Of a stretch of DNA of 64,000 nucleotides, positions 9,543-38,448 are shown piece after piece (position 1 is the stretch's first letter; the number at the start of each line of letters is the position of its first letter). Source of the DNA: Nitrospira sp. (GTDB lineage: Bacteria; Nitrospirota; Nitrospiria; Nitrospirales; Nitrospiraceae); NCBI GenBank assembly GCA_035968315.1, contig JAVYIN010000008.1:62001-126000 (forward strand). Reading direction: 5' to 3'. Below the pieces are notes generated by a model. It did not search any database and had not been told where the DNA came from. It saw only the letters and a program-made list of their open reading frames with translations. Position numbers and translations under genes: made by a program.

Positions 9543-9566
9543 GATAGGGATATAAGGATCGGGACC

Positions 9567-12257: not shown

Positions 12258-12293
12258 GGATCGCCGGATGATTCCGAAAGGCAGGAGCCTACG

Positions 12294-12881: not shown

Positions 12882-12890
12882 GCACGGACA

Positions 12891-13412: not shown

Positions 13413-13415
13413 CGC

Positions 13416-13718
13416 ATGATACCTTTAGCCGCCTATGTCGCCGTCAGCGCGATCCTCTTCCTCACCGGACTCCTCGGAGTGCTGATCCGGCGGAACTTTA
13501 TCATCGTGCTGATGTCCGTCGAGATCATGCTGAACGCGGCGAATATCAACCTGGTGGCCTTTTCACATTACCTGGAGTCCATGGCCGGCCAATTGGTGGC
13601 CCTGTTCATCATCGCCATTGCCGCCGGAGAAGCGGCTGTCGGATTGGCCATCATCATCGTGGTGTTCCGTGGCAAGCTCTCAACCAACGTCGACGAAATG
13701 AACCTATTGAAGTGGTAA
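13416..13718 (+). CDS. nuoK: Complex I subunit NuoK
   Basis: 100-residue membrane subunit with three helices, the usual length. The two proton-channel Glu are visible in LMSVEIMLNAANINL and in AAGEAAVGLAIIIVVFR. Its stop is one base before the GTG start of nuoL, so the two are translationally coupled. Confidence 0.96.
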   Translation: MIPLAAYVAVSAILFLTGLLGVLIRRNFIIVLMSVEIMLNAANINLVAFSHYLESMAGQLVALFIIAIAAGEAAVGLAIIIVVFRGKLSTNVDEMNLLKW

Positions 13719-13719
13719 C

Positions 13720-15696: not shown

Positions 15697-15732
15697 AGAA
15701 GATCCTATGATCGCCGAGGCATCACAGCACCC

Positions 15733-17292
15733 ATGTTAGAAGAACTCGCAGCCGGTTTCCCGATCTTGTCCTGCCTGCTCTTTCTCCCACTCGTCGGAGC
15801 AGCCGTCCTCTGGCTCTTTGAGGACGAGGATATGGTGCGAACCTCGGCCCTGACAATTACCCTTGTCGAATTGGCCCTCGCGATTTTTGTGTTGATTCGC
15901 TTTATTCCCGAATCCGCGGCCATGCAGTTTTCAGAGCATGTCCCATGGATCCCCGGGCTCGGCATCAGCTATCACCTGGCCGTTGACGGCATCAGTGTCC
16001 TCTTTGTCGGCTTGACCGCCTTCCTGACTGTCCTGGTGGTCATCTACTCCTGGGACACCATTCGTCAACAGGTCAAACTCTACATGATGTGTGTCCTGGC
16101 CCTTGAAACGACAACCATGGGCGTCTTCGTCTCGCTGGACCTGATTCTCTTCTTTGTCTTCTGGGAATTGATGCTCATCCCCAGTTATTTCCTCATCAAA
16201 CTCTGGGGTGGGGGAGCCGAGCGGCATTATGCGGCCCTGAAGTATGTGCTCTATACGCTCCTCGGCAGTGTCTTTATGTTGGTCGGGATCGCCCTGCTCA
16301 ATTTGAACTTCCATCAGTGGGCGGTCCTTCGTCATACCGACCAGGTCTATTCCTTCGACTTGCTCGATCTATTGACCGTTCCCATCCCCCTCAGCCAGCA
16401 GATCCTGATTTTCTGGCTGATGTTTATGGGCTTTGCCTTCAAAGCTCCCGTATTTCCGTTCCATACCTGGCTCCCGGATGCCTTGCTGGAAGGCCCGATC
16501 GGCATGGCGGTGGTTCTGGCCGGACTCAAGTTGGGAACCTTCGGCTTCATGCGATTCAGCATCCCGCTCCTGCCGGACGCATCCAAGAGCCAGACCGTGG
16601 TGGCAATCCTCATGTGTCTGGGCATTGCAGCCATCCTGTATGGGGCCATCATGGCGCTCATTCAGCCAGACTTCCGCCGCCTCCTGGCCTTCAGCAGCAT
16701 CAGCCACCTTGGCTTCATCGTGATCGGCCTCTTTGCGCTCAATTACCAGGGGCTTCAAGGCAGCCTTTTGACCATGATCAATCTTGGATTCAGCACTGCC
16801 GGCCTCTTCTTCATTGCCGGCTTTCTCTATTCCCGGCAACAGACAACCCATCTCTCTGCCTTTGGTGGGATGGCCAAACAGGTTCCGCTGCTCGCCAGTT
16901 ACTTTTTGTTAATCGGCCTGGCCTCTATTGGCTTGCCGGGAACGAACGGATTCGTCGGAGAATTTCTCATCCTCCTGGGGACGTTCAAAGCGAATTGGAT
17001 CTATGGCGCCTTTGCCGTCACCGGCGTGGTCTTCGGAGCAGCCTATTTTCTCTGGTACTACGAACGGGCCATTCTCGGCCCCCTGGGCAAAGCCGTGAAA
17101 AGCACCATGGTGGACCTGCAACTTCGTGAAATGATTATCGCCGTGTCACTGTCCGTGATGATTCTCTGGATCGGGCTCTATCCATCCCCCTTCCTGCGCA
17201 TCATGAACGGCTCCATCCAAGCCTTAGTCGATCGGCTGGACCATGGCACGGTGGCATCGCTTACTGACTCCGTTCAACGACAGGATCACTAG
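15733..17292 (+). CDS. nuoM: Complex I antiporter-like subunit NuoM, first copy
   Basis: 519 residues, about fourteen transmembrane helices. The channel residues are canonical: E145 in FVFWELMLIPSYFLIKLWGG, K237 in GFAFKAPVFPFHTWLPDA, the distal Lys in AGLKLGTFG and the late Glu in GTNGFVGEFLIL. It lies 36 bases after nuoL and 5 bases before the second nuoM copy. Judged by these residues it is the ordinary pumping NuoM. Confidence 0.95.
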   Translation: MLEELAAGFPILSCLLFLPLVGAAVLWLFEDEDMVRTSALTITLVELALAIFVLIRFIPESAAMQFSEHVPWIPGLGISYHLAVDGISVLFVGLTAFLTVLVVIYSWDTIRQQVKLYMMCVLALETTTMGVFVSLDLILFFVFWELMLIPSYFLIKLWGGGAERHYAALKYVLYTLLGSVFMLVGIALLNLNFHQWAVLRHTDQVYSFDLLDLLTVPIPLSQQILIFWLMFMGFAFKAPVFPFHTWLPDALLEGPIGMAVVLAGLKLGTFGFMRFSIPLLPDASKSQTVVAILMCLGIAAILYGAIMALIQPDFRRLLAFSSISHLGFIVIGLFALNYQGLQGSLLTMINLGFSTAGLFFIAGFLYSRQQTTHLSAFGGMAKQVPLLASYFLLIGLASIGLPGTNGFVGEFLILLGTFKANWIYGAFAVTGVVFGAAYFLWYYERAILGPLGKAVKSTMVDLQLREMIIAVSLSVMILWIGLYPSPFLRIMNGSIQALVDRLDHGTVASLTDSVQRQDH

Positions 17293-17297
17293 AACCC

Positions 17298-18974
17298 ATG
17301 GGTGACTACGCACTGCTCTACATTCTGTTCGCGCCGTTCGTCGGCGCCTTGGCGCTCATTTTTGTCTCCAACCGCCAGGCAATGCTCGTCCGTGGCATCG
17401 CAGCCGGATCGGCCTTCGTTTCCCTGATCGCGTCCATCTACTTGTTCTATGCCTATGACCCGGCCAAAGGCGGGTTTCAGTTCATCCAGAAATTCGAATG
17501 GTCGCGCCAGCTCGGGATCTCGCTGTATCTGGGCGTGGATGGGATCGGCACTCCGCTTGTGCTGGCCTCTTCGATTCTCTTGTTCGCCGGAATCTTCGTC
17601 TCCTGGCACGTCAAAGACCGGATGAAAGAGTTCTATATCTGGATCTTGATTCTGGCCGCCGCGACCATCGGCGTCTTCATGTCACTGGACCTCTTCTTCC
17701 TGTACTTCTTCTACGAGATGTCCGTCATCCCCATGTACCTTTTGCTCGGGATGTGGGGCAGCCACACCAAGAAGTATCTCGAAATGACCGACGCCGAAGG
17801 CCTCAAGCAGCGCGATTCCGTGGGGTTCATCTTCAATTTCGGCTCGAACAGCAAAGAATACGCCGCGATGAAACTCGTGCTGTTTCTCTCGGCCTTTGCC
17901 GTCGCGGCCCTCATGGGAATTTTATTGATCTACAAATATTCCGGCCTGAATACCTTCGATATTCTGGTGCTCCGTGAGCAGGCCCATCTGATGAATATTC
18001 CTGTCCTAGGCACCACGCTCGACAAGATTATCTGGGTCCTGATTTTCTTCGGATTCGCGTCGATTGCGCCGCTCTGGCCCCTCCATTCCTGGTCGCCGGT
18101 CGGACATGCGGCAGCTCCGGCCGCCACGAGCATGCTCCACGCCGGCGTGCTGATGAAGCTCGGCCATTTTTCGATTATTCGGGTCGCCTTTGAAATTCTT
18201 CCGGAAACCACGCGCGAGATGATGCCGATGGCGGCGGTCCTCTGCATGTTCAGCATTATTTACGGCGGATTCGTGGCCTTTTACGCCAAAGACACGAAAT
18301 ACGTGATCGGCTATTCCAGCTCCAGCCACATGGGCTACGTCTTCCTCGGCATGGCCGCGCTGGACTATATCAGTTTGAGCGGAGCCGTCATCTATATGTT
18401 CGCCCATGCCATGGCCACCGGCATGCTCTTCGCCATGGCCGGCTGGGTCTACGACCAGACCCATACGCGCGATATCCCGTCGCTCGGCGGCCTGTCGAAC
18501 AAGATGCCCTTTATCTCGGGCTGTTTTGTCGTAGGCTGCATGGCCTCCATCGGCATGCCCGGCACGGTCAATTTTATCGCCGAGGTCATGATTATCGTGG
18601 GGAGCTGGAACAAGTATCCGTTCCAGGTCGTGGTCGCCGTCCTCGGCATCGTGCTGACCCTCGCCTATCTCTTCAAAATGATGCGCGGGTTGTTCTATGG
18701 CCCCATGGATCAGAAATACAGCCACTCCCACGATGCCGTCTCCATCGTAGACCGGCTTCCGCTGCTCATCATGATTTCCGTGAGTATCGGCTTTGGCCTC
18801 TTTCCCATGCATTTATACAATGTCGTCCGCTCAGGGGTGGATCCGCTCATTGCCAGGATCACACACGTCGTGCCGGTAGCCTCCGCTCCGGCCCTCGATT
18901 CCCCGAGTCCAACAGTACAGGAACAATTGGCTGCACGCGGAGTACAGCTTCAACCGGAACGGATGACAGAATAG
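17298..18974 (+). CDS. nuoM: Complex I antiporter-like subunit NuoM, second copy (2M type)
   Basis: 558 residues, clearly NuoM-like (LFFLYFFYEMSVIPMYLLLG with E140; HAGVLMKLG with K287; GMPGTVNFIAEVMII with the late Glu), yet different from the first copy. It has an insertion of about 25 residues after GMWG (KKYLEMTDAEGLKQRDSVG...), and the TM7 Lys position reads FASIAPLWPLHSW, that is Ile256 where the first copy has Lys. The PDA motif after the tryptophan is also changed (SWSPVGHAAAP). A fourth antiporter-like subunit defines 2M complex I; the loss of the central Lys raises the question of how this copy moves protons. Confidence 0.93.
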   Translation: MGDYALLYILFAPFVGALALIFVSNRQAMLVRGIAAGSAFVSLIASIYLFYAYDPAKGGFQFIQKFEWSRQLGISLYLGVDGIGTPLVLASSILLFAGIFVSWHVKDRMKEFYIWILILAAATIGVFMSLDLFFLYFFYEMSVIPMYLLLGMWGSHTKKYLEMTDAEGLKQRDSVGFIFNFGSNSKEYAAMKLVLFLSAFAVAALMGILLIYKYSGLNTFDILVLREQAHLMNIPVLGTTLDKIIWVLIFFGFASIAPLWPLHSWSPVGHAAAPAATSMLHAGVLMKLGHFSIIRVAFEILPETTREMMPMAAVLCMFSIIYGGFVAFYAKDTKYVIGYSSSSHMGYVFLGMAALDYISLSGAVIYMFAHAMATGMLFAMAGWVYDQTHTRDIPSLGGLSNKMPFISGCFVVGCMASIGMPGTVNFIAEVMIIVGSWNKYPFQVVVAVLGIVLTLAYLFKMMRGLFYGPMDQKYSHSHDAVSIVDRLPLLIMISVSIGFGLFPMHLYNVVRSGVDPLIARITHVVPVASAPALDSPSPTVQEQLAARGVQLQPERMTE

Positions 18975-19004
18975 GGTACGCCTGACGATGTACGGATCGA
19001 CGCT

Positions 19005-20501
19005 ATGAATTTTGAATTGAACATGTCGCTGTCGGATCTCCTGCTCCTTCTGCCGGAGATTGTGCTGACCATTTGGCTCTGCCTTGTCTTGATTGCCGAT
19101 TTCGCATTCCCGCGCATGCCCAAGGAGCAGCTGGCCTATTTCAGCATCGCCGGCCTCGTGGCGACCCTCGCCTGTCTCGCCTGGCTTGATATCAGCCATA
19201 CCACCGGGGCCCTCTTCGGCAACATGTATGTCCTCGACCGGATGGCCCTGTTCTTCAAGATGTTTATCGTTGGGGCGAGCATCCTCGTCATACTCGCGTC
19301 CATCGAATACGTCCAGAAATTCGCCTTCTTCCGCGGTGAGTATTACTTCCTGGTGGTCATGTCCGCCCTCGGCATGATGTTCATGGCCTCCGCCAACGAT
19401 CTGCTGTCGCTCTTTGTCACGCTGGAATTCTCCACCTTCGGATTCTATGTCCTCGTGGCCTACCTTCGCGACGATGTGGCCTCCAACGAAGCCGGGCTTA
19501 AATTCTTCATCCTCGGAGTATTTGCCGCGGGATTGCTGGCCTATGGCATCAGCCTGGTGTACGGAGAAACGGGCAAACTCGTATTTTCCGATATGACCTC
19601 TGCCCAGGCTACCCCGGGCCTGATCATCGGCTTCCTGCTGATCTTTGCCGCGCTTGGATTTAAGATCGGCGCGGTGCCCTTTCACTCCTGGATTCCCGAC
19701 ACCTATCACGGATCGCCCACGCCCGTGACCGCGTTCCTCTCCATCGCTCCCAAAGGCGCGGCCTTTGCCATTCTCCTGCGCATGTTCTTTGTCGCGCTGG
19801 CGTCATTTAAGCCCATGTGGGTCCTGTTGCTCGCGGCCACCTCGATCCTCTCGATGACCTATGCCAATATCGTGGCCATCGCGCAAAAGAACATCAAACG
19901 CCTCCTGGCCTACTCCGGCATCGCGCAAATCGGGAATGTGCTCATCGGACTGGCTGCCGGAACCAAGATGAGCAACGACGCGATTCTGTTTTACCTGCTG
20001 ACCTATCTCTTCGCGAATATCGGCGCATTCGCTGTCATCATTGCGGTCAGCCATGCTATCGGCAGCGAAGAAATCGACGATTACAGTGGCCTGAATCGCC
20101 GGTCGCCGTTTCTGGCGTTTTCCATGCTGCTGTTTCTCCTGTCCTTGGCCGGAGTCCCTCCGCTGGCGGGCTTCATCGGCAAACTCTATATCTTTGTCGC
20201 GGCCATTAAGGAAGGTCTCTATACCCTCATCACCGTCGGTCTGATCAACATTGTCATCTCGATGTACTATTACCTCATCGTGGTCAAGAAAATGTACATC
20301 GCCGAACCGACCAATCCGGCTCCAATCGCGATTTCCACGCCCCTCAAGGTGGTGGTCTATATCAGTCTCGCCGGTACGCTGCTCATCGGGATCTACCCCC
20401 AGCCGTTCATTGACTGGGTCGTGGCCGCCACGATGATGTTTTCCCATTTTGGCGCCCCAGCCTCTACCATGATCCCCCCGGTCTCCCCATTTGGAGGCTA
20501 A
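19005..20501 (+). CDS. nuoN: Complex I antiporter-like subunit NuoN
   Basis: 498 residues, about fourteen transmembrane helices, last gene of the operon. Channel residues are present: Glu in LFVTLEFSTFGFYVLVAYL, Lys in AALGFKIGAVPFHSWIPDTY and Lys in FLSIAPKGAAF. HGSPTPVTAFLSIAPKG is typical of NuoN. Thirty bases separate it from the second nuoM. Confidence 0.96.
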   Translation: MNFELNMSLSDLLLLLPEIVLTIWLCLVLIADFAFPRMPKEQLAYFSIAGLVATLACLAWLDISHTTGALFGNMYVLDRMALFFKMFIVGASILVILASIEYVQKFAFFRGEYYFLVVMSALGMMFMASANDLLSLFVTLEFSTFGFYVLVAYLRDDVASNEAGLKFFILGVFAAGLLAYGISLVYGETGKLVFSDMTSAQATPGLIIGFLLIFAALGFKIGAVPFHSWIPDTYHGSPTPVTAFLSIAPKGAAFAILLRMFFVALASFKPMWVLLLAATSILSMTYANIVAIAQKNIKRLLAYSGIAQIGNVLIGLAAGTKMSNDAILFYLLTYLFANIGAFAVIIAVSHAIGSEEIDDYSGLNRRSPFLAFSMLLFLLSLAGVPPLAGFIGKLYIFVAAIKEGLYTLITVGLINIVISMYYYLIVVKKMYIAEPTNPAPIAISTPLKVVVYISLAGTLLIGIYPQPFIDWVVAATMMFSHFGAPASTMIPPVSPFGG

Positions 20502-24821: not shown

Positions 24822-25331
24822 CTAAGAAAAGCGCCGCACCTGTTCCGCCAATGTGCTGGCCACGAGACCGAGATCAAAAGGCCAGGCATACCGCAGTTCA
24901 ACCCCCGGATACTGCGGCCGCAAATGGTCGAGGATTTCTGGGATCTCCACCTCCGAGTGCGACCCGCCCGGCGTGAACATCGTCGTCGTCACAGTAATGT
25001 GCGTCGCCCCTTTCTTGACCAGGGCCTCGACCGACTCTTCCAGCGTCGGGGCACAAAACTCGTTGTACGCGACGGCAAAGAGCACATCTCCCAGGCTGGC
25101 TCGCAACTGAGCCGCCACCGCTTCCAGTCCCGATTGATACGGATCCGTCTCCGGTGTCCTCGGCCACTGGCGGATTTTGGCATCAAGCTCCAGCTCTTCA
25201 GCCGAAGGCGGTTGCTTGGCCGCGCGCCGCTGAGCTTCCAGCCGTTTCAGCTTTGTGACCAATTCCTGCGGACACCCCTTGGGAATCCCGCCGTGCCCGA
25301 CCAGAATCACTCCCTTGATTGCCGTTCCCAT
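24822..25331 (-). CDS. cbiX: CbiX/SirB-family sirohydrochlorin chelatase-like protein
   Basis: 169 residues with the CbiX fold: GVILVGHGG at the N-terminus (metal and tetrapyrrole-binding His), AYNEFCAPTLEESVEAL in the middle and TTMFTPGGSHSEVEIPEIL with the second His. Family members insert cobalt (B12 synthesis) or iron (sirohaem) into sirohydrochlorin. It follows the DUF523/DUF1722 gene by 28 bases and belongs to the minus-strand run downstream of the B12-type light regulator, which favours a link to cobalamin. Confidence 0.82.
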   Translation of the reverse strand: MGTAIKGVILVGHGGIPKGCPQELVTKLKRLEAQRRAAKQPPSAEELELDAKIRQWPRTPETDPYQSGLEAVAAQLRASLGDVLFAVAYNEFCAPTLEESVEALVKKGATHITVTTTMFTPGGSHSEVEIPEILDHLRPQYPGVELRYAWPFDLGLVASTLAEQVRRFS

Positions 25332-25359: not shown

Positions 25360-26313
25360 TTACACATGATTGCGCAACATGAGTTCTTTCGGATGCGGAT
25401 TCAGATACACCTGGTCGCGAATGTAGTGCACCTCGAAGAGGTGGACGTAATGCTTGATCAGCGTGAGGGGCACAATGAGCGGCGTCAACCCTTGATGGTA
25501 GTCTCCGATCACACCCAGCAGTTCCGCCTTGTCCCGCGCGGCAAGGTGGTCTTTGAAATATCCGAGGATGTGCTGTAACACATTCACATGTTTCCGCACC
25601 GTCGCCCTCATGGCCAACGCTTTCATGAAGAGGTCGCCATACCGGTGGGCAAGCTCTTTGGGCCGGTGCCGTTCCGCCTGGCCGACCAGCCGCCCGAGGG
25701 CCTGGTAATGCTGCGGACTATGGGCCATGAGCAGATACTTATGAATCGTGTGGAACCGGACCACCGCCTGCCTCGTCACACCGTTCTGAAGCAGATCCTG
25801 GTACCGGCGGTAACAAAATACGCGCTCGATAAAATTCTCCCTGAGCGGCGCATCACAGAGCCGCCCTTCCTCCTCGACAGGAATCAGCGGGAACTGTTCG
25901 ACAAAGGCCCGCGCGAAGATGCCGGATCCGTTTCGGCTCGGCATCCCCTGTTCGGTATAGACGCGAACCCGCTCGACGCCGCAGCTTGGCGACCCCCTCT
26001 TAAACACATACCCAGAGAGGTCCAGATCCCCAAGCGCCTCAAGGCGCTTCGCGGTCATCCTCTCCAACACCCGAGTATGATCCTTCCCGCTGGTGATGGT
26101 CAGGAGCCGGGGATGAGCAGGATCGCCGACCAGCCGCATCGCTTCCCGCGGAGTGCCCAGTCCGGCCTCGACTTCCGGACAGACCGGAACCCACTCCACA
26201 TAGGGGCCCAAGACATCGGTCAGAAAGTTGTCGCGCTTGTGGCCCCCGTCAAACCGGACTTCGTCTCCGAGAAGACAGCGGCTGATCCCGAGACGGAGCG
26301 GTGCGGTTGTCAT
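25360..26313 (-). CDS. DUF523-DUF1722 fusion protein (YbgA-like, photolyase partner)
   Basis: 317 residues. The N-terminal DUF523 part has ISRCLLGDEVRFDGGHKRD, VPVCPEVEAGLGTPREAM and FKRGSPSCG with conserved Cys; the C-terminal DUF1722 (YbgA) part has VRFHTIHKYLLMAHSP and HVNVLQHILGYFKDHL. The start at 26313 overlaps the photolyase stop in an ATGA arrangement, showing translational coupling. In other bacteria this family is a frequent photolyase neighbour; its biochemical role is not known to me. Confidence 0.88.
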   Translation of the reverse strand: MTTAPLRLGISRCLLGDEVRFDGGHKRDNFLTDVLGPYVEWVPVCPEVEAGLGTPREAMRLVGDPAHPRLLTITSGKDHTRVLERMTAKRLEALGDLDLSGYVFKRGSPSCGVERVRVYTEQGMPSRNGSGIFARAFVEQFPLIPVEEEGRLCDAPLRENFIERVFCYRRYQDLLQNGVTRQAVVRFHTIHKYLLMAHSPQHYQALGRLVGQAERHRPKELAHRYGDLFMKALAMRATVRKHVNVLQHILGYFKDHLAARDKAELLGVIGDYHQGLTPLIVPLTLIKHYVHLFEVHYIRDQVYLNPHPKELMLRNHV

Positions 26314-27755
26314 GATCCTACCCGTTGTGTGCCCATCTTCAAATATTCCTCGCGTGCCCGGCGATGATCCACGATGGGTGCAGGATACTCGCCCCCGATC
26401 CGACAACCGACACGTCCCTGCTCGCTCGCTGGCATCAGATGCGGCTCATGAATCCACTTATTCGACAGCAAAGCCAACTCCGGCACATAGAGACGAATAT
26501 ACTGTCCTTCTGCATCGAATTTCTTGCTTTGGAGCACCGGGTTGAAAATGCGGTACCCGCGCATCGCATCCGTGCCGGTCGAGGCGCACCATTGCCAATT
26601 GCCGTTATTCGCAGCGACATCCGCGTCCAGCAAATGCTGCATGAAATACCGCTCGCCACTCTGCCAGTCGATCCGCAGATCCTTGATCAGAAACGAGGCT
26701 GTAATCATCCGTACACGGTTGTGCATCCATCCCGTCTGATTCAGCTGCCGCATGCCGGCATCCACAATCGGATACCCGGTCTTCCCTTCGCACCAGGCCT
26801 GAAACAGGCGGTCCCGTTCCGGACCCGGTTCCCGCGACAGGGGGACTGCCACGGGACGGAACGGACCCTCAACGACACGGGGAAAGGCCGAGAGCACCTG
26901 CTGAAAAAACTCTCGCCACACCAGTTCATCGATCCAGATCAGGACATCCGCCCTCGATACCCGGCTTCCCTGTGTGAGACCGCCCAAGGCCGTATGGATA
27001 GCCGTGCGGGCCGACAGAGTTCCAAAACGAAAATGAGGGGAAAGTTGTGAGCTCCCGTCGATGCCCGGCAGATTCCTGCCCTGACCATACGTGTGACCCG
27101 GGCCACGGAGAAACCGTTGCAACCGCTTCCGGGCCTGCCCCTCTCCCGGCTCAATCCAGGGCACCACGTGGTCGTACCCTAATTCACCCGCCGATGGAAG
27201 GGGAGAAGAGGCAGGGAGCTCTGGATTCTTTGAAGCCGTGATGGCCCTGGGAATCGGGAGGGGCGAGGGTTTCGCCGCCTGCCACTTGGCCCACCAGCGG
27301 GTGCGATAGGCGCTGTATCGTTGCATCGGTTCGCCGGTCACGCCTCGGACTTCTTCCGCCTCAAACACAACATGGTCTTTGAATGTGCGGACGACCACGC
27401 CGATCTGTGCCAATCGGTGCTGAAGGGCCCGGTCCCGCGCAATCGCCCCCGGTTCATAGTCACGGTTCCAATAGACGACATCGGCCTTCCATTCGCGGGC
27501 CGCTTGAACGACTTCTTCCACCGGATCGCCCCGACGCCATCGCAGCGTGAGGCCCAGACCGGCCAACGATGCCGACAGGTCCCGGAGACATCCCAGCATG
27601 AAATTCACGCAGGCGGCCCCGAAGACAAGCGGCTGCAAGAGAAGTTCATCAAAGACAAAGAGCGGAATAACTTCTCCACAGGCCTCGCAGGCGGCCGTCA
27701 AAGCCGGCTGATCGTGCACTCGAAGATCGCGTCTGAACCAAACAAGGCCGCGCAT
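26310..27755 (-). CDS. phr: Deoxyribodipyrimidine photolyase (class I cryptochrome/photolyase family)
   Basis: 481-residue flavoprotein that repairs UV-induced pyrimidine dimers using blue light. The antenna domain starts LVWFRRDLRVHDQPAL; the FAD domain shows GQGRNLPGIDG..SQLSPHFRFG, WREFFQQVL, GYPIVDAGMRQLNQTGWMHNR and NNGNWQWCASTGTDA. The ATG at 27755 overlaps the stop of the upstream membrane-protein gene (TGATG), so they are coupled; the longer open frame continuing upstream lies in another gene. It sits in the run controlled, by inference, by the CarH-like regulator. Confidence 0.95.
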   Translation of the reverse strand: MRGLVWFRRDLRVHDQPALTAACEACGEVIPLFVFDELLLQPLVFGAACVNFMLGCLRDLSASLAGLGLTLRWRRGDPVEEVVQAAREWKADVVYWNRDYEPGAIARDRALQHRLAQIGVVVRTFKDHVVFEAEEVRGVTGEPMQRYSAYRTRWWAKWQAAKPSPLPIPRAITASKNPELPASSPLPSAGELGYDHVVPWIEPGEGQARKRLQRFLRGPGHTYGQGRNLPGIDGSSQLSPHFRFGTLSARTAIHTALGGLTQGSRVSRADVLIWIDELVWREFFQQVLSAFPRVVEGPFRPVAVPLSREPGPERDRLFQAWCEGKTGYPIVDAGMRQLNQTGWMHNRVRMITASFLIKDLRIDWQSGERYFMQHLLDADVAANNGNWQWCASTGTDAMRGYRIFNPVLQSKKFDAEGQYIRLYVPELALLSNKWIHEPHLMPASEQGRVGCRIGGEYPAPIVDHRRAREEYLKMGTQRVGS

Positions 27756-29242: not shown

Positions 29243-30157
29243 CTAGCCTGCAAGGATCGCCCGTAAGGCCGTCTCCAGCGTCGGATATTGAAAGACGTAC
29301 CCACCGGAAAGCGCCTTCGCCGGACTCACTCGTTGACCTGTCGTCATCAGCGTTCCCAGCTCACCAAGCGCCACGTTCAACGCCAGGCCCGGCACCGGAA
29401 ACCAGGATGGCCTGTGCAACACCTTACCAAGAGTCATACTGAATTCGCTCATCGTCACCGGCGTCGGTGCCACAGCATTAACGGGACCAGACACCGTGGG
29501 GGTCCTGAGGACCCACTGAATCAAGCCGATGTGGTCGCGCCGGTGAATCCAGGAGACCCACTGGGTTCCCGGCATGATCGGACCTCCCGCGAACAACCGG
29601 AAGGGCAGCAGCATCTTCGGCAACGCGCCGCCGGCCTGTTCCAGGACCATGCCCGTCCGCAAAAGAACCACCCTCGTGCCATACGATGCAGCGGCAAGAG
29701 CCGCGGCTTCCCACTCCAGACAGAGATCGGCCAGAAAGCCTTGGCCGCGCACCGCGCCTTCATCCAGCACACGATCGTCGCTGGCCCCGTAGTAGCCGAT
29801 ACCGGACGCGTTGATGAGCGTGCGTGGTCTTGAAGACCGGCGCAATAGGGCCTCGACCAATAGGCGGGTAGTCCGCACACGGCTGTCGGTGAGGAGGCGC
29901 TTCCGCGCAGGGGTCCAGCGGGCTTCGGCGATTGGAGCCCCGGCGAGATTGATGATCGCATCGGCTCCTTCGAGCGCCTGCTCCCACAACCCGGCCTCTC
30001 GCCCACTCCACTCAACGGCAGTCACAGCGGGGCCGAACAACCGTTGGGCTTCTACCGGCCTTCTCGTCAGGAGTGTGACCGTATGGCCTTCCGCACAGAG
30101 CAACAGGCACAGGGGCCGGCCGATGAATCCCGTTCCGCCAGTCATCACAATGCGCAT
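29243..30157 (-). CDS. TIGR01777-type epimerase (SDR superfamily, YfcH-like)
   Basis: 304 residues. The NAD(P)-binding Rossmann motif MTGGTGFIG is at the N-terminus, with ADAIINLAGAPIAEARW, RKRLLTDSRVRTTRLLVEAL, SGIGYYGASDD and WIHRRDHIGLI, all family signatures, and a DUF1731-like C-terminus (QRVSPAKALSGGYVFQYPTLE). The catalytic Tyr lies in GYYG. The substrate is unknown. This epimerase is a common member of photolyase/LitR gene groups. Start at 30157 is supported by CAGGAGAAA upstream. Confidence 0.87.
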   Translation of the reverse strand: MRIVMTGGTGFIGRPLCLLLCAEGHTVTLLTRRPVEAQRLFGPAVTAVEWSGREAGLWEQALEGADAIINLAGAPIAEARWTPARKRLLTDSRVRTTRLLVEALLRRSSRPRTLINASGIGYYGASDDRVLDEGAVRGQGFLADLCLEWEAAALAAASYGTRVVLLRTGMVLEQAGGALPKMLLPFRLFAGGPIMPGTQWVSWIHRRDHIGLIQWVLRTPTVSGPVNAVAPTPVTMSEFSMTLGKVLHRPSWFPVPGLALNVALGELGTLMTTGQRVSPAKALSGGYVFQYPTLETALRAILAG

Positions 30158-30380: not shown

Positions 30381-31226
30381 CTATTTTTGGCGAACCTCTT
30401 CATCAAGGCTACGAACACAGCGAAAGCCGGTGCCGTGCGTCTGAAGCGCAACCCCCCCGCGGCCCCTGGCGGAGGTCGTGATGTCGGCCAGCGGGCTATG
30501 CCACGAGCCGCCGCGGATCGATCGCACCACACCCTTCTTGTCAGGACCCTGCGGATTTCGGTCCTGCGCATGCTTGTAGTAATCCGCATCGTACCAGTCG
30601 GACACCCACTCCCTCGCATTGCCGGCCATATCTTTCACTCCGTAAGGGGAGTCTCCCTCAGGCAGAGTGCCGACGGGGTGGAGCGTCTTCTCCTCATCCC
30701 ATTCACGATCAAAATTTGCGCGCCTCAACGTCGCCGGTTCATTGCCCCAGGGAAACAAACGGCCATCGGTCCCACGAGCCGCCTTCTCCCATTCGGCCTC
30801 TGTCGGAAGACGCTTTTTGGCCCAACTACAGTAGGCCTTGGCGTCATACCAGGTCGTCTGAACGACAGGGAGTTGCTCGATACCCTTCGCGGACAAGAGC
30901 GGCCCCGTGCCGTACGGATTCGGCGGATTGCGATGGCCCGTCGCGGCGACGAAGGCCATGTACCGTTCATTGGTGACTTCGACTTGATCGATCGCAAAGG
31001 CATCGAGATAAATGGATCGTTGCGGCCATTCATCGGCGCGGCCCTTTCCCTCTGGATTCCCCATTAAAAATTCTCCGGCAGGAATCGTCACCATGGGAAC
31101 CGGATCAAGGTCTTTTGACCCCGGGGCCGCCGCCACGACAGTCGATGGCCCAACGGCACAGACAATGGCCATGATCCCTGCAGCCACATTCCAGCGAGCT
31201 GTGTTCCTGCTCAAGGCTCGTGTCAT
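30381..31226 (-). CDS. Secreted SUMF1 (formylglycine-generating-enzyme-like) protein
   Basis: 281 residues with a signal peptide and one SUMF1 domain: MVTIPAGEFLMGNPEGKGRADEWP, FAIDQVEVTNERYMAFV, KRLPTEAEWEKAARGTDGR, FPWGNEPATL, VKDMAGNAREWVSDWY, RSIRGGSWHSP and GTGFRCVRS. True formylglycine-generating enzymes use an active-site Cys pair that I cannot point to here, so a sulphatase-modifying role should not be assumed. Its ATG overlaps the stop of the His-rich gene (ATGA), with AAGGAG upstream. Confidence 0.85.
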   Translation of the reverse strand: MTRALSRNTARWNVAAGIMAIVCAVGPSTVVAAAPGSKDLDPVPMVTIPAGEFLMGNPEGKGRADEWPQRSIYLDAFAIDQVEVTNERYMAFVAATGHRNPPNPYGTGPLLSAKGIEQLPVVQTTWYDAKAYCSWAKKRLPTEAEWEKAARGTDGRLFPWGNEPATLRRANFDREWDEEKTLHPVGTLPEGDSPYGVKDMAGNAREWVSDWYDADYYKHAQDRNPQGPDKKGVVRSIRGGSWHSPLADITTSARGRGGVALQTHGTGFRCVRSLDEEVRQK

Positions 31227-31591
31227 TTCTTCTGCTCCTTGCTCCCCTCGATGGCGTGGGTCGTATGGATTTTGACTTGGCCGACAAGACGCTCCACCTG
31301 GCGCTTGTCCCCCCGCTCGGCTGCCTCTTGGGCCTGAGGGATGAGGGTTCTGGCCTCGTGCAAATGCTCCTCGATTTCTGCCTGCAGCGCGGGCGAGGCT
31401 ACGGTGCCTCCTAAGGCCGCGCGATGATACACCTCCCAGGCATGGTCCACCTCGTGCTCGGCGTCATGCACCGCTTTCGCGCTGTCCGGATGCGGGTGGC
31501 CGGCCGGATCGATGGGACCAGCTAATCCAATGCCGGTTCCCATGAGTGCGCTGAATACCATTCCAAGAATAATAGTGGTGTCCCGTGTCAT
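31223..31591 (-). CDS. Small periplasmic His-rich protein (SmbP-like)
   Basis: 122 residues with a signal peptide and a helical mature part rich in His and Glu (PAGHPHPDSAKAVHDAEHE, VDHAWEVYHRA, EEHLHEARTLIPQAQEAAERG). The spacing of His on helices is reminiscent of the small metal-binding protein SmbP of nitrifiers; that is the best guess, not a firm assignment. GGAGG supports the ATG at 31591. It is translationally coupled to the SUMF1 gene downstream. Confidence 0.6.
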   Translation of the reverse strand: MTRDTTIILGMVFSALMGTGIGLAGPIDPAGHPHPDSAKAVHDAEHEVDHAWEVYHRAALGGTVASPALQAEIEEHLHEARTLIPQAQEAAERGDKRQVERLVGQVKIHTTHAIEGSKEQKK

Positions 31592-31705
31592 GTGTACGCC
31601 TCCGTCGCAATCGCACCTTCGCCACAACCTGCTCACCATTCAATGAACGCGACGTCCTGAAACGCTCGATCATCTCAGGTCTCCTGCCAGGAAGTCAGAC
31701 TTTCT

Positions 31706-31742: not shown

Positions 31743-32708
31743 CTATTTCTTCTTCATGCTCTTCTTGATCAGATCACGGGTGGCCAAGTACTCCTTGTTC
31801 CCCGGATCAGCAGCCAGCGCCTTCTCGATGGAAGCCATCGCATCGGCGTTCTTCTCCGCCCCCATGGCGACGAGAGCCTGGATGAAGGCATCACGACCGG
31901 TCTGCATGGATTCGTCGGAAATCGTCTGTGCCGACTTGGCGCAACGGAATCCGAGTCCTACTCCATAGGAGTTGTTCTCCGGTTGATTCCAGAACCGATG
32001 GCTCGTGTGCAAGGATGTCTCCGGAGCCAGCCAGGAGCCGCCGCGCAACACCCTGACCGGACCCTGATTGGCAAAGTTGTAGCCCTTGTCCGGCCCCTTG
32101 GGGTTCAGCGCAAGACTCTCGTTATAGGACTTCGGGTCATACCAGTCATTGACCCACTCGAACACATTGCCGGCCATGTTATAGACGCCGAATCCACTTA
32201 CCCCTTCCGGATAGGAATCAACCGGCATGGTGCGACCGACATTCTGTCCATAATTGGCCTTCTTGGGATCAAGTTTGTGGCCCCAGGGATAATGGTTATC
32301 GCCATCCGGGCCTTTGGCAGCCCGCTCCCACTCCGCTTCGGTCGGAAGGCGCTTGCCGTCCCACTTGCAGAATGCGTCAGCATCAACCCAGCTCACCCCG
32401 ACCACAGGCTGGTTAGGCTTGCTCAGACGGGGATCGTCCCAGTACGCCGGTGCCGGATGGCCGGTAGCTTTCATGAATTCCTTGTACCGTGCATTCGACG
32501 CTTCGTACTTATCGATGAGGTAGGCATCGAGGACGACCTGATGCGCCGCTTCATCGGCATGTTCGCGACTCCCCATGGTGAACTCACCTTTGGGGATCAA
32601 TACCATATCCTTGTCGCCGGCAGACGAATCTGCTGCTGCCGCCATGGATAGAGTTCCCGTCATTAACGCCACTCCCAATCCCACCTGAAGAACTGTTTGA
32701 CTCCGCAT
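31743..32708 (-). CDS. Secreted SUMF1-domain protein with C-terminal helical tail
   Basis: 321 residues: signal peptide (MRSQTVLQVGLGVALMTG.. to AAAAD), SUMF1 domain (DMVLIPKGEFTMGSREHADEA, YLIDKYEASNARYKEFM, KRLPTEAEWERAAKG, YPWGHKLDPKKANYG, VYNMAGNVFEWVNDWY, VRVLRGGSWLAPE, GLGFRCAKS), then about 60 residues forming a TPR-like helical pair (AFIQALVAMGAEKNADAMASIEKALAADPGN) ending KKSMKKK. AGGAGG upstream fixes the start at 32708. It is the second gene from the light-switch promoter. Confidence 0.85.
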   Translation of the reverse strand: MRSQTVLQVGLGVALMTGTLSMAAAADSSAGDKDMVLIPKGEFTMGSREHADEAAHQVVLDAYLIDKYEASNARYKEFMKATGHPAPAYWDDPRLSKPNQPVVGVSWVDADAFCKWDGKRLPTEAEWERAAKGPDGDNHYPWGHKLDPKKANYGQNVGRTMPVDSYPEGVSGFGVYNMAGNVFEWVNDWYDPKSYNESLALNPKGPDKGYNFANQGPVRVLRGGSWLAPETSLHTSHRFWNQPENNSYGVGLGFRCAKSAQTISDESMQTGRDAFIQALVAMGAEKNADAMASIEKALAADPGNKEYLATRDLIKKSMKKK

Positions 32709-32764: not shown

Positions 32765-33061
32765 TTACGACCGAACCTGCCACTCCCTCGATTGATCCAA
32801 TGTGCCCTGAGACCGAACCGTCCTTGACTCCAGCCGGACTCGCCGATTGCGCACAATGACGGGATCGACGACTTCCCCGCATTGCACACAGCGCTTGGCG
32901 GCAAACGCGAGTTCGCCGGTGCTATTCAGGAGGTCCATGCACAAGTCACTCACCATGAATCCGCCGCATCTGACGCACATCGACTCAGGGTGGCCTGCCA
33001 AAGAGACGGCCCGGTGCTGCAGATGATTCCCGTTCCCTTGCTGCGTCGATGCTGTTGCCAT
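32765..33061 (-). CDS. Small zinc-ribbon-like protein, first gene of the light-switch transcript
   Basis: 98 residues with CVRCGG and CVQCGE (CxxC twice, about 30 residues apart), consistent with a zinc ribbon. No other domain is seen. The start at 33061 is supported by GGAGGTGATT directly before the ATG, a near-perfect match to the 16S anti-Shine-Dalgarno. It is the first gene transcribed from the minus-strand promoter at 33111-33139. Confidence 0.65.
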   Translation of the reverse strand: MATASTQQGNGNHLQHRAVSLAGHPESMCVRCGGFMVSDLCMDLLNSTGELAFAAKRCVQCGEVVDPVIVRNRRVRLESRTVRSQGTLDQSREWQVRS

Positions 33062-33082
33062 AATCACCTCCATAGGATTTAT

Positions 33083-33174
33083 GTTCAATGTTTGTTTCAT
33101 GTATGTCTAATGTATAAACCATGATGTCCAATGTGTCAAGTGTTTTTGTATAAATTATTTGACAAACATTGGAC
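33083..33174. promoter_or_regulatory. Operator array for the CarH-like regulator (four repeats)
   Basis: Four copies of an eight-base motif GTYYAATG occur between the divergent genes: GTTCAATG 33083-33090, GTCTAATG 33105-33112, GTCCAATG 33126-33133, and the inverted CATTGGAC 33167-33174. The first three are direct repeats spaced 22 and 21 bases, two helical turns. The third and fourth lie immediately beside the -35 boxes of the two divergent promoters in mirror-image position. This is what a tetrameric repressor covering both promoters would need. Confidence 0.7.
33111..33139 (-). promoter_or_regulatory. Promoter of the zinc-ribbon/SUMF1/photolyase run
   Basis: On the minus strand TTGACA (33139-33134), a 17-base spacer and TATACA (33116-33111). 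The -35 is a perfect consensus and the -10 differs from TATAAT by one base. CATTGGAC directly follows the -35, so a bound repressor would block polymerase. Leader to the ATG at 33061 is about 45 bases. Confidence 0.75.
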
Positions 33175-33187
33175 GCTGAAATATAAT
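33159..33187 (+). promoter_or_regulatory. Perfect consensus sigma-70 promoter of the regulator gene
   Basis: TTGACA at 33159-33164, a 17-base spacer, and TATAAT at 33182-33187, an exact consensus promoter. The expected start of transcription is only a few bases before the ATG at 33200, so the mRNA is leaderless or nearly so, agreeing with the absence of a ribosome site. CATTGGAC lies three bases after the -35, implying autorepression. Confidence 0.8.
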
Positions 33188-33199
33188 CAAAAAATAATA

Positions 33200-34123
33200 A
33201 TGAATCTCCATAGAATTCATAGAGTTGCGAAACTAACAGGCCTCTCGAAGGATGTGATTCGTGTCTGGGAGAGGCGCTACGGGCTTGTCAAACCTTCGCG
33301 AAGCTCCAATCGCTATCGGGAGTACAGCGACGAAGAAGTGGCACTCCTTCGCTTCGTGAAGGATCAAATGGAACAAGGGGCAACGATCGGGGGACTGGCA
33401 GCGGAGGGACATGATGCCCTGGTCGCGCGCATGCGCATCGCCACGCCGGTTTCTCCCCAGGAGGAAAAACCGCATGAGCGGCTGCTAGATGATTTGATTG
33501 GATCCCTTGACCCGCTCGACAAGGCAGGATTCGAGCGCAAGCTCAACGGCGCGGTGGCCGTCATACCATTTGAAGAGGCGCTTCACCGAATATTACTGCC
33601 ACTGCAGCGCCGCATTGGCGAGCTCTGGCATGAAGGCAGATTGAAGGTAGGCATCGAGCACTACGTGACAAAACTCGTGCAGCAAAAACTCTTCTCCGTC
33701 ATGAATCAAATGCCGGTCAATGAATTAGGGCCCCGCGTCTTGATCGCCTGCGCTGAAGGGGAGCTTCATGAAATTGGCGCGCAAGCCGCCGCCTACATTG
33801 CCGCCTCTCATGGTTGCCAGGTGTATTACCTGGGCCCCAATTTGCCCACGTCAGAGCTTCTGTCATTCTGCGAGCGGATCACTCCCGATCTCGTCCTGCT
33901 CTCTCTCACCGATGCACAAACAGAAGCGGCCGCACTTCAACACCTCAAGAACCTCGAGCGGCTCGCCAGCCGCTGGTCTATTGCGGTGGGAGGACAGGGG
34001 GCGCGCGCCATCGAGCCGCTCCTGCGGAATTCCACGATAGAACTCCTCGACGACTTCAACGCACTGCACAGCCGACTGACCAGGCTTAGCTCACACCGCA
34101 AACTCGCCGATCATTCCCAATAG
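33200..34123 (+). CDS. CarH/LitR-type B12-dependent light-sensing MerR regulator
   Basis: 307 residues. N-terminal MerR winged helix (HRVAKLTGLSKDVIRVWERRYG), a helical middle domain with the CarH signature W-x9-EH (W143, E153, H154 in LWHEGRLKVGIEHY), and a C-terminal cobalamin-binding domain with ExHxxG (E188, H190, G193 in EGELHEIGA) followed by YYLGPNLPTSEL. In known CarH proteins adenosylcobalamin holds a DNA-binding tetramer in the dark and light breaks it. All signature residues needed for this are visible. It reads away from the photolyase-containing run, and its own promoter carries the operator motif. Confidence 0.88.
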   Translation: MNLHRIHRVAKLTGLSKDVIRVWERRYGLVKPSRSSNRYREYSDEEVALLRFVKDQMEQGATIGGLAAEGHDALVARMRIATPVSPQEEKPHERLLDDLIGSLDPLDKAGFERKLNGAVAVIPFEEALHRILLPLQRRIGELWHEGRLKVGIEHYVTKLVQQKLFSVMNQMPVNELGPRVLIACAEGELHEIGAQAAAYIAASHGCQVYYLGPNLPTSELLSFCERITPDLVLLSLTDAQTEAAALQHLKNLERLASRWSIAVGGQGARAIEPLLRNSTIELLDDFNALHSRLTRLSSHRKLADHSQ

Positions 34124-34440: not shown

Positions 34441-37400
34441 CTAGAGCTTCCACGAGGGAGAGCCCCATTCCTGCGCCAGATCTTCGCGCCACGCGCGATC
34501 TTCATAAGAGGTTGCGATCTTCGCCATCAGGCGCGACGTACGTGGCCATCCCTCGCGTAACCGGCGCGCGGATTCACGAAGCCGATCAGCTTGCACCTTC
34601 CATTCACTCCGCTTTTCGCGACCCGCATTGCCGTGGAAGGAGAGGCCCAGACTGAGCCCTGCCTCCATCTCCTCGCTGGCCAGTTTCTCCATGAGGTTCC
34701 GAACCGCTTCATGGGGCCAGGCCCCGTCCTCACCTGGAGGATAATGCGCCAAGACCCGTCCGATCTGATAGTCAGCCGCCTTAAGGAGGCCAAGACTGGA
34801 TGCCAATTCACGAGCGCGTGACACCCACGGCGTCAACGTTTCGATTGAAACCGTCCCATCCACATTGAGTCCGGGCGCCTGCTGCCATCGTGACAGCAGA
34901 TCAGCCCCGCACTGGGCACGGAGCTGCTGCGCCTGGGTCGCATCCTGAATCGCGTGCGGTTCCGGCCCATAGGTGCAGGTTAATAGTTCCACGAAGAATG
35001 CGGGGGTCTCGGCCAGCACCCGCTCGACTCGACTGAGCCGCGGATCACATCGAATAAACGGCCTTAACGTCCATTCCAACCGTGCGAGTTCCACATCAGA
35101 AATCTCGCCGGACCGAACCATCTGCTTCAACAGACTGACGACGCGATGACCCTGCCGTCCCCAATCCAACTCGCCAGGCGATGATGACGCCAAGCGAGAC
35201 ATAACTTCTACGGCAAGTCCTGAACGCACGCGAGAGGACTCGCCCTCTGAAGAGAGAACCAGCAGCTCGATCGCCGACTCCCATTGGCGATAGTCGAGAA
35301 ACTTTTGGACGACCCGCTCAAGAAATTGCCCGTCGAGCCGCCCGTGCCCATGCGGGCCGATGTGCGACCAATACAGCCGCCTGGTGGTATCATCTTCACG
35401 GTCCACCGCATCCCAGGTCATTTTGTCCGGGAAGGGAAGGCATCGAAAATAATCCGCCCGTTGCGCAGGAGTCCACGTGTGCCAGACGCTCCCCTCGCGC
35501 AAACGGACCGCCCAGTTATAGCCCTTCATCGCCCGGCGTGTGATGAGAAAGTGCCTGCCCAGTTGCCGGCGCGCTTCATTGGAGGAACCTAAACATTGCG
35601 TCAGAATCTCTACCTCGGATGCATCCGGCACCTGACTCGCGCCCAAAGCGGCGCCAACTTTCTCCGGATAGGGCACCTGATCAGCTAACGATAAAATCGC
35701 GGGTAATCCTCCCTGCGCAAACAGCGTGTCCACACTGCTGATCTGCGCCTCTTGAAGCGCCTTGGCATAGTCCTCGCGAGATTGTTTGGAGGAACTCTCG
35801 GGCTCCGCTGAGAACAGCCACTTCCGCTTGATGACCGGATCGCGGGGCTCAAACTTCGCCTGGAGCCCGACAAGACGGTCAACCACGTTGGGGGAAAGCG
35901 CTCCAGCCGCACGATGATCCCGCCGATGCGATGACACCATCTGGCGCACGCTCTCCCACACCAGACTCTTATCGGCTTCACTGAATAGTCCAGGGTCGAG
36001 AGACAGCAACCTGCCACACAGCGATTCACCGACTGATCGAGGCACCTCCGGCAACCGGTCTATCAAGGCCTTCCAGCGGGAACCCGCCGTCCCCGTATCA
36101 TCCAGCTGCCTTTGAGCGATCTCCTCTGCAGCCCGCAGGATTTCCGTAGAGATGGCCGTGGGATTCCGTTCCGCCCCCCACTCTCGCCAGCGCGGCTTGA
36201 CGACCGGCTGTGTAGGATCCAGGCTGCTTGGCACACAGTGATCGAGAAGATCCCATGCCACGTTCGGCTCGCGTGTTCGTATCAGATCAAGCACGCGCAG
36301 GCGCTCGTCCAAGTTCGCAACAGTGCCGGACCCGCCGCAACGCAGGACCTTGCGCAGAAGGACGAGCGGCCCCGTTGCCAAGCCACCGCCAGGCCCCTTC
36401 CCCGCCAGCGTCGCGAGCATCAACGCGGTGCGCGCGAAGTAGTCAGGCGACCAGGCCAGCCCCTCCAGCGCATCCAAGAGTCCCGTCGAGGGAGGCGCGT
36501 GCAGTGCCGCGTTATCTCCGTCTGAGACTATCGTTCCCAGATGCGTAGGTGGGCTCGCGAGCGCGCGTTCGAGCGCCGAGAGAAAGACGTCTGGCGCGGC
36601 TTCGGCAAGACAGGGGAAGAGCGGGGAGAGCGATGTCCACAGAAACCAGTCCTCGGATTGGGACAGAAGCTTCGTGAGCATCCTCGTCGCCCAGGCTTGT
36701 CCGTTCGCACGATCATCGATCGGGCACACCTCACTCCACGAGCCCAGTATCGCGAGCGTTTCAGCCAGCCCCTTGCGGAGTGCGCCCGAATGCGTCAGGA
36801 CGGGGTCACGCTCCCCCAATACCTCCAGCACCACAGACTCCAACCGTTCAAGATGCTGTTTCGATATGGAACGAGACAGGAGACACCAGCCATCCGCCAG
36901 GGACGCCCACACCCGCATATCACCGGCCAGGCGAACCGGAGGATCAGGATCACCGGCCCAGCGTTGAAGCAGGGCCGTCACTTCTCCATACGCGGTTCCT
37001 GCCAGAGCAGACAGCACCTGTTGATCGGCCGGGTTGCGGTCATTCCATTGCCCGGCGAAGAGGGCCGAGATCAAGATGCGCGCAGAGCCGGATTCCGTCC
37101 AGAACGGGGTCACGGTAGAGGCGTCAACAGCCAGGGCTCGCCGGAGTACACCCAGGCTTCGCCCCGCCAGTGCCGCGAGTTCTCCAGCACGGTGAGGAGC
37201 CACACCCGTTGCATCGAGAATCGCGCTGGCTGCCTCTCGATTGAGCCACGGAAGAATGATCGCACCGTGCGAAGGCCGTTCGCCTCCCCCAAACGGAACC
37301 GCGATCGAGTGGCCATTCGCGAGAGCGGCAGCCACAGCATGGCGATCGTGAACAAGCGGGATCAGCACGAGCGGAGTGGTCCAGCCAGCCAACTGCCTCC

Positions 37401-38448
37401 AGGCCACAGGATCGTCGACGATCACCGCGCGAGCCAGAATGGCTTCCCGCTCTTCAGGATTTCCCATACGCAGAACGGCAGCGGCAAAAAACGCCAGGGC
37501 TTCTTCTCTCGTGTCCGCTTGCAGCTCCAAGACCGATGGCTGAGCCAGAAGGAACTCATGCACTGGCACAACGGACTCCCAACGGCCGGCCAGGACCAGC
37601 TCCGGGCTTATCGCAGGGCAGGTTGCGCCCGACCATGTGTGCCAGAAGCTGTGGATATCCATGACGCCGCTGGGATGCCTGCCCATCAGAGTTGAAAACC
37701 AGATATGCACCGCCGGGCAGGCCTCGAGCCAGGCCGCCAGATCATCGGCATCAAGAACACGAACGTCCTTCCACAGCCCTTCCTGTCGCTTGGATAGAGC
37801 CCAGGCTTCTTTGTTCGCCCAGCGCCTCGGAGTGACAAAGACAAATGTGCTATGGGCCGGCTGCACCACGCCTGGTTCGTTCACCCTTGCCGCATAATCT
37901 GCGTCGGCCTTCTCTTCGACCTGCTCCTGAGTCCCCATCTCCCAGCCGGAAACTCCTGGAGAAACAAAGACATGGCCTTGCGATACCCGAAGGACTCCGT
38001 CCCACACAGATCCGTGTTTCCCATCTTCTGACCCGATATGGATCTCTTCAAGCCCTACAAGGGTGCAGATCGCCAGCTTCTTGATCAGTTGGGGAAGGAT
38101 GGCGGGCGCATCGAGTCGGTGTGCCAAGCCCTCCACGTCTGCCGCATCCGCCAACTCTGTCCGCATCCGCCTTGAAACCTGGACAGGGACCCGAGCAGGG
38201 GAAGCTTTCGAGAAGGTGATCGTATGAGCCGCCTCGCTCACTGCCGGAAACAACGTGGCAACCGGAGCGCCGAGGGCGGCGGAAATCTTGATGGCGAGGT
38301 CATGCCGAACCGATTGTGTACCAGCTTCAATTCGCTGAATTTGCTGCTGGCTCGTTCCAATGTTCGCCGCCAGAGCCTTTTGGGAGAGTCCCAATTCTTG
38401 ACGGAAAACCCGTATCCGGTTCAGTTCTTTTGGTTCCTTGAGCTTCAT
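34441..38448 (-). CDS. XRE-HTH / nuclease-like / long helical protein, candidate defence effector
   Basis: 1335 residues. Residues 8-65 are an XRE-family helix-turn-helix (LGLSQKALAANIGTSQQQIQRIEAG). Residues about 118-260 form an alpha/beta domain with conserved-looking stretches GSVWDG (D150), VSGWEMG (E170), EEKADADY (K180), FVFVTPRRW and VRVLDADDLAAWLE; the D...E...K order fits a PD-(D/E)xK-type nuclease, but this is inference. The remaining thousand residues are mostly helical with no Walker A motif that I can find. AGGA precedes the ATG. The gene borders a tRNA gene used as an integration site, a usual place for defence genes. Its stop codon touches the 201-bp repeat. Confidence 0.6.
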   Translation of the reverse strand: MKLKEPKELNRIRVFRQELGLSQKALAANIGTSQQQIQRIEAGTQSVRHDLAIKISAALGAPVATLFPAVSEAAHTITFSKASPARVPVQVSRRMRTELADAADVEGLAHRLDAPAILPQLIKKLAICTLVGLEEIHIGSEDGKHGSVWDGVLRVSQGHVFVSPGVSGWEMGTQEQVEEKADADYAARVNEPGVVQPAHSTFVFVTPRRWANKEAWALSKRQEGLWKDVRVLDADDLAAWLEACPAVHIWFSTLMGRHPSGVMDIHSFWHTWSGATCPAISPELVLAGRWESVVPVHEFLLAQPSVLELQADTREEALAFFAAAVLRMGNPEEREAILARAVIVDDPVAWRQLAGWTTPLVLIPLVHDRHAVAAALANGHSIAVPFGGGERPSHGAIILPWLNREAASAILDATGVAPHRAGELAALAGRSLGVLRRALAVDASTVTPFWTESGSARILISALFAGQWNDRNPADQQVLSALAGTAYGEVTALLQRWAGDPDPPVRLAGDMRVWASLADGWCLLSRSISKQHLERLESVVLEVLGERDPVLTHSGALRKGLAETLAILGSWSEVCPIDDRANGQAWATRMLTKLLSQSEDWFLWTSLSPLFPCLAEAAPDVFLSALERALASPPTHLGTIVSDGDNAALHAPPSTGLLDALEGLAWSPDYFARTALMLATLAGKGPGGGLATGPLVLLRKVLRCGGSGTVANLDERLRVLDLIRTREPNVAWDLLDHCVPSSLDPTQPVVKPRWREWGAERNPTAISTEILRAAEEIAQRQLDDTGTAGSRWKALIDRLPEVPRSVGESLCGRLLSLDPGLFSEADKSLVWESVRQMVSSHRRDHRAAGALSPNVVDRLVGLQAKFEPRDPVIKRKWLFSAEPESSSKQSREDYAKALQEAQISSVDTLFAQGGLPAILSLADQVPYPEKVGAALGASQVPDASEVEILTQCLGSSNEARRQLGRHFLITRRAMKGYNWAVRLREGSVWHTWTPAQRADYFRCLPFPDKMTWDAVDREDDTTRRLYWSHIGPHGHGRLDGQFLERVVQKFLDYRQWESAIELLVLSSEGESSRVRSGLAVEVMSRLASSSPGELDWGRQGHRVVSLLKQMVRSGEISDVELARLEWTLRPFIRCDPRLSRVERVLAETPAFFVELLTCTYGPEPHAIQDATQAQQLRAQCGADLLSRWQQAPGLNVDGTVSIETLTPWVSRARELASSLGLLKAADYQIGRVLAHYPPGEDGAWPHEAVRNLMEKLASEEMEAGLSLGLSFHGNAGREKRSEWKVQADRLRESARRLREGWPRTSRLMAKIATSYEDRAWREDLAQEWGSPSWKL

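Follow-up and report, generated by a model that had tools for sequence, protein, structure and literature searches.

A CarH-type regulator with tandem TnnACA repeats over divergent promoters in Nitrospira: a probable B12- and light-controlled circuit

CarH proteins are repressors whose adenosylcobalamin (AdoCbl)-bound oligomers bind DNA and repress transcription in the dark, and light releases them (PMC8156234). The published half-site is TnnACA (PMC9304148), and the protein motifs of CarH have been defined in PMC9304148 and PMC8156234. In a 64,000-nucleotide stretch of Nitrospira DNA, which is the window analysed here, we found a locus that shares with the T. thermophilus CarH/LitR system (5c8d, 5c8e, 3whp) the domain order of the regulator, the WH-x8-EH and ExHxxG motifs, and tandem TnnACA repeats with the -35 box inside one repeat. 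It differs from that system in that the proteins are only about 32% identical, the Nitrospira cluster has no crt target genes, two facing arrays lie over divergent promoters, and repeat position 2 of the local half-site ACATTRGACAT is C instead of A. The myxobacterial CarH operators, including those of divergent crtI-carH pairs, resemble the Nitrospira operator in their arrays of direct repeats and pseudo-repeats, varied spacing and divergent promoters, but their targets are carotenoid genes, whereas SUMF1-like, photolyase and RudS genes are found in Nitrospira (PMC9304148). Class II LitR of Pseudomonas (PplR/PmlR; PMC9758184) is similar in that photolyase, SDR and RudS (PMC11417400) genes are controlled by a LitR/CarH-family repressor with TGTACA-type sites. 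Class II proteins, however, have no Rossmann B12 domain and use a LOV partner, whereas the Nitrospira protein keeps both B12-region subdomains, as in class I.

The genome of the window comprises 3.11 Mb in 11 contigs. Its nearest named relatives are Nitrospira MAGs, the best of which is Nitrospira sp. UBA6493 (84% identity), and they also include the CG24A/B/D records, which we take to belong to the comammox lineage, and N. lenta. The initial annotation had proposed a probable nitrifier as host, and this holds through the named Nitrospira relatives; matches to nitrite oxidoreductase (TIGR03479) in the genome were all below the cut-off, so nitrifier status rests on kinship. Two of these matches, each at the end of a contig (G000, C8:2-160 and C7:544443-544601), cover the N-terminal part of a type II DMSO-reductase-like gene; an assembly broken by a multi-copy nxrA would look like this. 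A gene run at 6794-20501 of the window reads, by eye, as NADH dehydrogenase (nuo) subunits.

By Pfam, phmmer, an AlphaFold2 model and its motifs, the gene at 33200..34123 on the plus strand encodes a full-length CarH-family protein of the class I LitR type (307 aa). The ATG at 33131 given by the ORF caller was rejected as its start, the conserved start being 33200. A MerR helix-turn-helix (HTH; MerR_1, residues 5-65), a four-helix B12-binding_2 domain (97-164) and a Rossmann B12-binding domain (179-275) all scored above the Pfam cut-off. Among solved structures, the T. thermophilus CarH/LitR protein was the top phmmer match (E 4-5e-31), and CarH entries were the top Foldseek matches to the model (pLDDT 86.8; E 8e-19). 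The full-length Foldseek rmsd was large, probably because the HTH sits on a flexible linker; VIA-align against 5c8d/5c8e gave Z 21.6, with the B12 half superposed at 2.3-2.5 A (198 residues at 2.5 A). The CarH signatures W-x9-EH and ExHxxG, which had been read from the sequence earlier, were both found and are nearly invariant across relatives. The adenosyl-capping Wx9EH motif is W143-H144-x8-E153-H154, and among 48 relatives W143 and H154 are invariant and E153 is kept in at least 90%. The B12 motif D/ExHxxG...SxT/V...GG is present as E188LHEIG193 (E188-x-H190-x-x-G193), S235LT and G264G265, and the GxxW, EH and GxxH motifs of PMC11796333 are likewise present. The best family match was the CarH equivalog NF052513 of NCBIfam at 143 bits; this is below the curated 400-bit cut-off, and the regulator is not filed under that family because the cut-off picks close orthologues, not the CarH class.

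Relatives that act without B12 do exist, namely class II LitR and CarA (PMC9758184, PMC9304148), and the B12 motif is changed to ExHxxA and SFP in a second Nitrospira clade, which could point to a CarA-like or class II LitR-like regulator that keeps the fold, has lost the cofactor function and answers to a partner protein. We consider this very unlikely for the window protein, which retains the Trp lost in CarA (W143), the Rossmann domain as well as the four-helix half to which class II LitR is restricted, and the full ExHxxG...SxT...GG series. In the second clade (clade B; L049-L068, L076 and others), WH-x8-EH is mostly kept, and EEHDIAA and SFP stand in place of ExHxxG and SxT; B12 binding may be altered there, with the operator unchanged. 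A Pyrinomonadaceae MAG contig (L114), likely mis-binned, also carries a Nitrospira-type CarH of clade B together with its operator. In the window, the CarH gene is adjoined by a 1335-aa ORF (34441-38448, minus strand) with an N-terminal HTH-like segment.

Both promoters claimed for the 138-bp intergenic region were confirmed base by base. The regulator promoter is a perfect TTGACA-N17-TATAAT (33159..33187, plus strand; -35 33159-33164, -10 33182-33187) and is the sole 12/12 match within 24.0-38.0 kb of the window, and the divergent promoter is a conserved TTGACA-N17-TATACA (33111..33139, minus strand; -35 33139-33134, -10 33116-33111). The regulator mRNA had been predicted to be nearly leaderless, and we found that ATG 33200 sits 12 nt past the -10 box and that a short leader is kept in 76 non-redundant relatives (inferred median 5 nt, maximum 15 nt; an SD-like string in 5/76). 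The very short conserved leader perhaps holds regulator output low; a normal GGAGG ribosome site precedes the divergent gene.

The 8-mer CATTGGAC, which contains the published half-site, is present in the places that the initial annotation had given: exact copies at 33167-33174 (plus) and 33133-33126 (minus) lie 2 and 0 bases past the respective -35 boxes, and one-mismatch copies at 33112-33105 and 33090-33083 (minus) follow at spacings of 21 and 22 bp. Four such copies in the intergenic region compare with a Markov-shuffle mean of 0.20 (P ~2e-4), and over the whole window the 8-mer is not enriched (46 vs 60 expected). The putative binding unit is better described as tandem ~11-bp TnnACA repeats (PMC9304148, PMC8156234) than as pairs of CATTGGAC. 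On the plus strand, the -35 TTGACA (33159) doubles as a TnnACA repeat, and TGGACG (33170), within CATTGGACG (33167..33175), lies exactly 11 bp past it, so that the tandem 11-bp repeats overlap a promoter element. On the minus strand, the half-sites are TTGACA 33139 (-35); TGGACA 33130, within CATTGGACA (33125..33133), immediately after the -35 box; TATACA 33116 (-10); TAGACA 33109, within CATTAGACA (33104..33112), which overlaps the -10/start region of the divergent promoter; GAAACA 33098 (33093..33098), an imperfect in-phase repeat absent from the initial list; and TGAACA 33087, within CATTGAACA (33082..33090), 22 bp past the TAGACA repeat. The TAGACA, GAAACA and TGAACA repeats run in exact 11-bp steps across the divergent start region, while the spacing of the whole minus arm, with its pseudo-repeats, is 9, 21, 11 and 11 bp and not strictly 11. 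Repeats near multiples of 11 bp with -35 boxes inside the array are also found in known CarH operators (PMC9304148, PMC8156234). The earlier description of mirror-image operators is right in that the arms are inverted, but they are not true mirror images: the distance from the -35 box to the next TnnACA is 9 bp on the minus side and 11 bp on the plus side, and three further repeats lie on the minus side only.

The MerR-type HTH would also fit a protein that activates transcription in classic MerR style, between the -35 and -10 boxes. Promoters activated in this way have spacers of 19-20 bp, whereas both spacers here are 17 bp; in addition, the hexamers match or nearly match the consensus and need no activator, and the repeats are direct, with no palindrome in the spacer. 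Activation instead of repression is thus extremely improbable.

In this one intergenic region the TnnACA core alone is not significantly frequent (7 vs 4.0 expected, P 0.11); the weight of the operator case comes from conservation. We collected CarH upstream regions from Nitrospira and close kin and anchored 76 non-redundant ones on both -35 boxes. On the plus side, these regions hardly vary over TTGACA-AACATTGGAC: the T at +11 and the AC at +14/15 (the second repeat) are present in 99-100%, and the -35 box is kept in 95-100% and the -10 TAnnnT (+23 to +28) in 87-91%. On the minus side, 62, 63, 46, 50 and 33 of the 76 regions have a TnnACA at offsets 0, 9 (the TGGACA repeat), 23, 30 (the TAGACA repeat) and 52 (the TGAACA repeat), respectively, against a shuffle mean of 0.5 per offset, and the ACA position of the GAAACA repeat is partly conserved. 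Because the related sequences were anchored on the motif itself, offsets 0 and 9 have a partial advantage; what we regard as meaningful is the conservation of the distant offsets and the contrast between the left operator, with about 1.5 bits/position over its first 15 bases, and the flanks, with 0.14. Searching the genome itself with the operator profile returned one site, that of this locus (E 1.4e-18), and the pattern with 3 mismatches gave 7 matches vs 6 for a reversed-pattern control, so a wider regulon within this genome is unsupported.

The first divergent gene, orf98 (32765..33061, minus strand), carries the ribosome site before its ATG and is conserved beside CarH; its product is Cys-rich with a weak zinc-ribbon resemblance, every match being below the Pfam cut-off. 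On the same strand follow a probably exported SUMF1/FGE-sulfatase-like protein a (SUMF1a, 31743..32708; Pfam), conserved orf124 (31223..31594), SUMF1-like protein b (30381..31226; Pfam), a TIGR01777/ThyD-like SDR (29243..30157; NCBIfam), a deoxyribodipyrimidine photolyase (26310..27755; Pfam, NCBIfam), a RudS-type tRNA 4-thiouridine desulfidase (DUF523 + DUF1722, 25360..26310; Pfam; definition in PMC11417400) and a CbiX-domain protein (24822..25331; Pfam). These genes are tightly spaced from 33061 through photolyase and RudS to the CbiX-domain gene, and we found no convincing terminator between 33061 and the latter; terminator-like sites (3 vs 6.6 expected) fall in or beside the photolyase and RudS coding sequences, and gaps of ~150 and ~220 bp could house internal promoters. 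Judging by the region of GGSWLAPETSLHTSHR, which we take to be the relevant motif, SUMF1-like proteins a and b seem not to have the pair of Cys residues found in true formylglycine-generating enzymes and may be non-catalytic or have another job. In many relatives (L069, L071, L072 and others), a second, diverged copy of orf98, which has two CxxC pairs, stands immediately ahead of the SDR gene. In four genomes (G040 C1:3326850, G053 C199:423, G016 C5:9878, G025 C53:16902) a photolyase gene has a single in-frame stop, from decay or assembly error. There are no crt genes in the divergent operon, and a carotenoid link was rejected, as CrtI had no match above the cut-off in the genome. The SDR, photolyase and RudS genes probably belong to the operon that CarH would control; the gene set resembles known light regulons, in that LitR goes with photolyase and SDR in Pseudomonas (PMC9758184) and RudS is found in light-responsive operons (PMC11417400).

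To follow inheritance, we used 79 genomes of the genus, in which CarH was found in 54, the operator profile in 54 and SUMF1a in 52. Counted as both, CarH only, partner only and neither, and with P values that carry no correction for phylogeny, CarH co-occurs with the operator (52/2/2/23, P 1.7e-15), with SUMF1a (50/4/2/23, P 9e-14) and with photolyase (51/3/8/17, P 1e-8). Loss of the motif beside the same gene pair in relatives had been named as evidence against the circuit; the operator is present in 52/54 CarH genomes, and in the other two the upstream region is N-filled (G009) or the operator was missed by the profile (G044). G017 and G074 were dismissed as cases of an operator without CarH, the former being cut by a contig end and the latter holding CarH fragments. 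Both CarH and the operator track the divergent orf98-SUMF1 genes. The four CarH-less photolyase loci inspected (L160-L163) keep photolyase-RudS-CbiX, and orf98, both SUMF1-like genes and the operator are absent; the tight module is therefore CarH-operator-orf98-SUMF1, with photolyase looser, and the least secure part of the reading is control of photolyase by CarH. In several genomes there are two or three copies of CarH from well-separated clades, each with the same operator type. Seven orphan operators (L093:5059, L095:5096, L097:4940, L101:5403, L074:16940, L105:1402 and L158:398) all precede orf98 or SUMF1a, the adjoining CarH copy being fragmentary or untraceable. That an operator outlives its neighbouring regulator indicates that the site serves the divergent operon, and such use, presumably via a CarH encoded elsewhere, appears to be the best explanation; for L158 (G074), no other intact CarH was found in a genome that is only 80% complete.

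From the protein family, key residues, promoters, repeats, conservation, co-inheritance and orphan operators, all read from sequence, we infer binding, repression, the response to light and B12, and the operon extent. It is highly probable that the best explanation of the locus is an AdoCbl photoreceptor-repressor circuit, controlled by B12 and light, repressed in the dark and induced by light, which supports the initial interpretation as a readable circuit for B12-dependent light control. In the dark, AdoCbl-bound oligomers would bind the tandem TnnACA repeats, which overlap both -35 boxes, the minus -10 box and the minus start region, and would silence the regulator's own promoter together with the divergent operon. 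Light would photolyse the Co-C bond, the oligomer would fall apart and both promoters would open, giving light-induced, autoregulated expression of orf98 and the SUMF1-like genes, and probably also of the SDR, photolyase and RudS genes that run in the same direction. Darkness alone would not keep the operon closed if AdoCbl were lacking.

The genome encodes cobalamin adenosyltransferases of the PduO and CobA types, close together on contig C5, and CbiL had no match in it above the cut-off, which suggests B12 salvage; N. marina has been proven auxotrophic for B12 (PMC8115632). Given this apparent inability to make the corrin ring, a lack of B12 should open the operon in the dark too, and CarH should thus also report B12 supply. 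The same facts, the CbiX-domain gene within the cluster and the darkness of many Nitrospira habitats would suit an AdoCbl-bound sensor that uses the same operator with B12 (or redox/cobalt) supply, not light, as its input. We hold this to be unlikely, as photolyase and RudS downstream are light/UV functions and the Trp-His-x8-Glu-His set is kept, including the His that turns upper ligand after photolysis. A photo/UV link in a group described in the initial annotation as not usually thought photo-responsive is not wholly new, photolyases having already been noted in N. marina (PMC8115632); our literature search found no paper on a Nitrospira CarH and likewise none on a comammox photoreceptor.

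The locus adds a member to the CarH family and to its operator design, one with an unusual target set; the kind of switch is a known one, and the placement of CarH in nitrifiers looks undescribed. Tentatively, CarH may govern a genus-wide B12- and light-gated Nitrospira regulon whose core targets are the exported orf98/SUMF1-like proteins and not pigment or photolyase genes, which would tie some function of the envelope to light and scavenged B12; paralogous copies of CarH would then share a common operator code within one genome. Nitrospira, which include comammox, are main nitrite oxidisers, and light affects nitrification in the field. If the circuit works as proposed, the list of CarH targets would gain photolyase, RudS and SUMF1-like genes without carotenoids, and a conserved CarH circuit would tie the light response of nitrifiers to vitamin exchange, in hosts that perhaps depend on others for B12.
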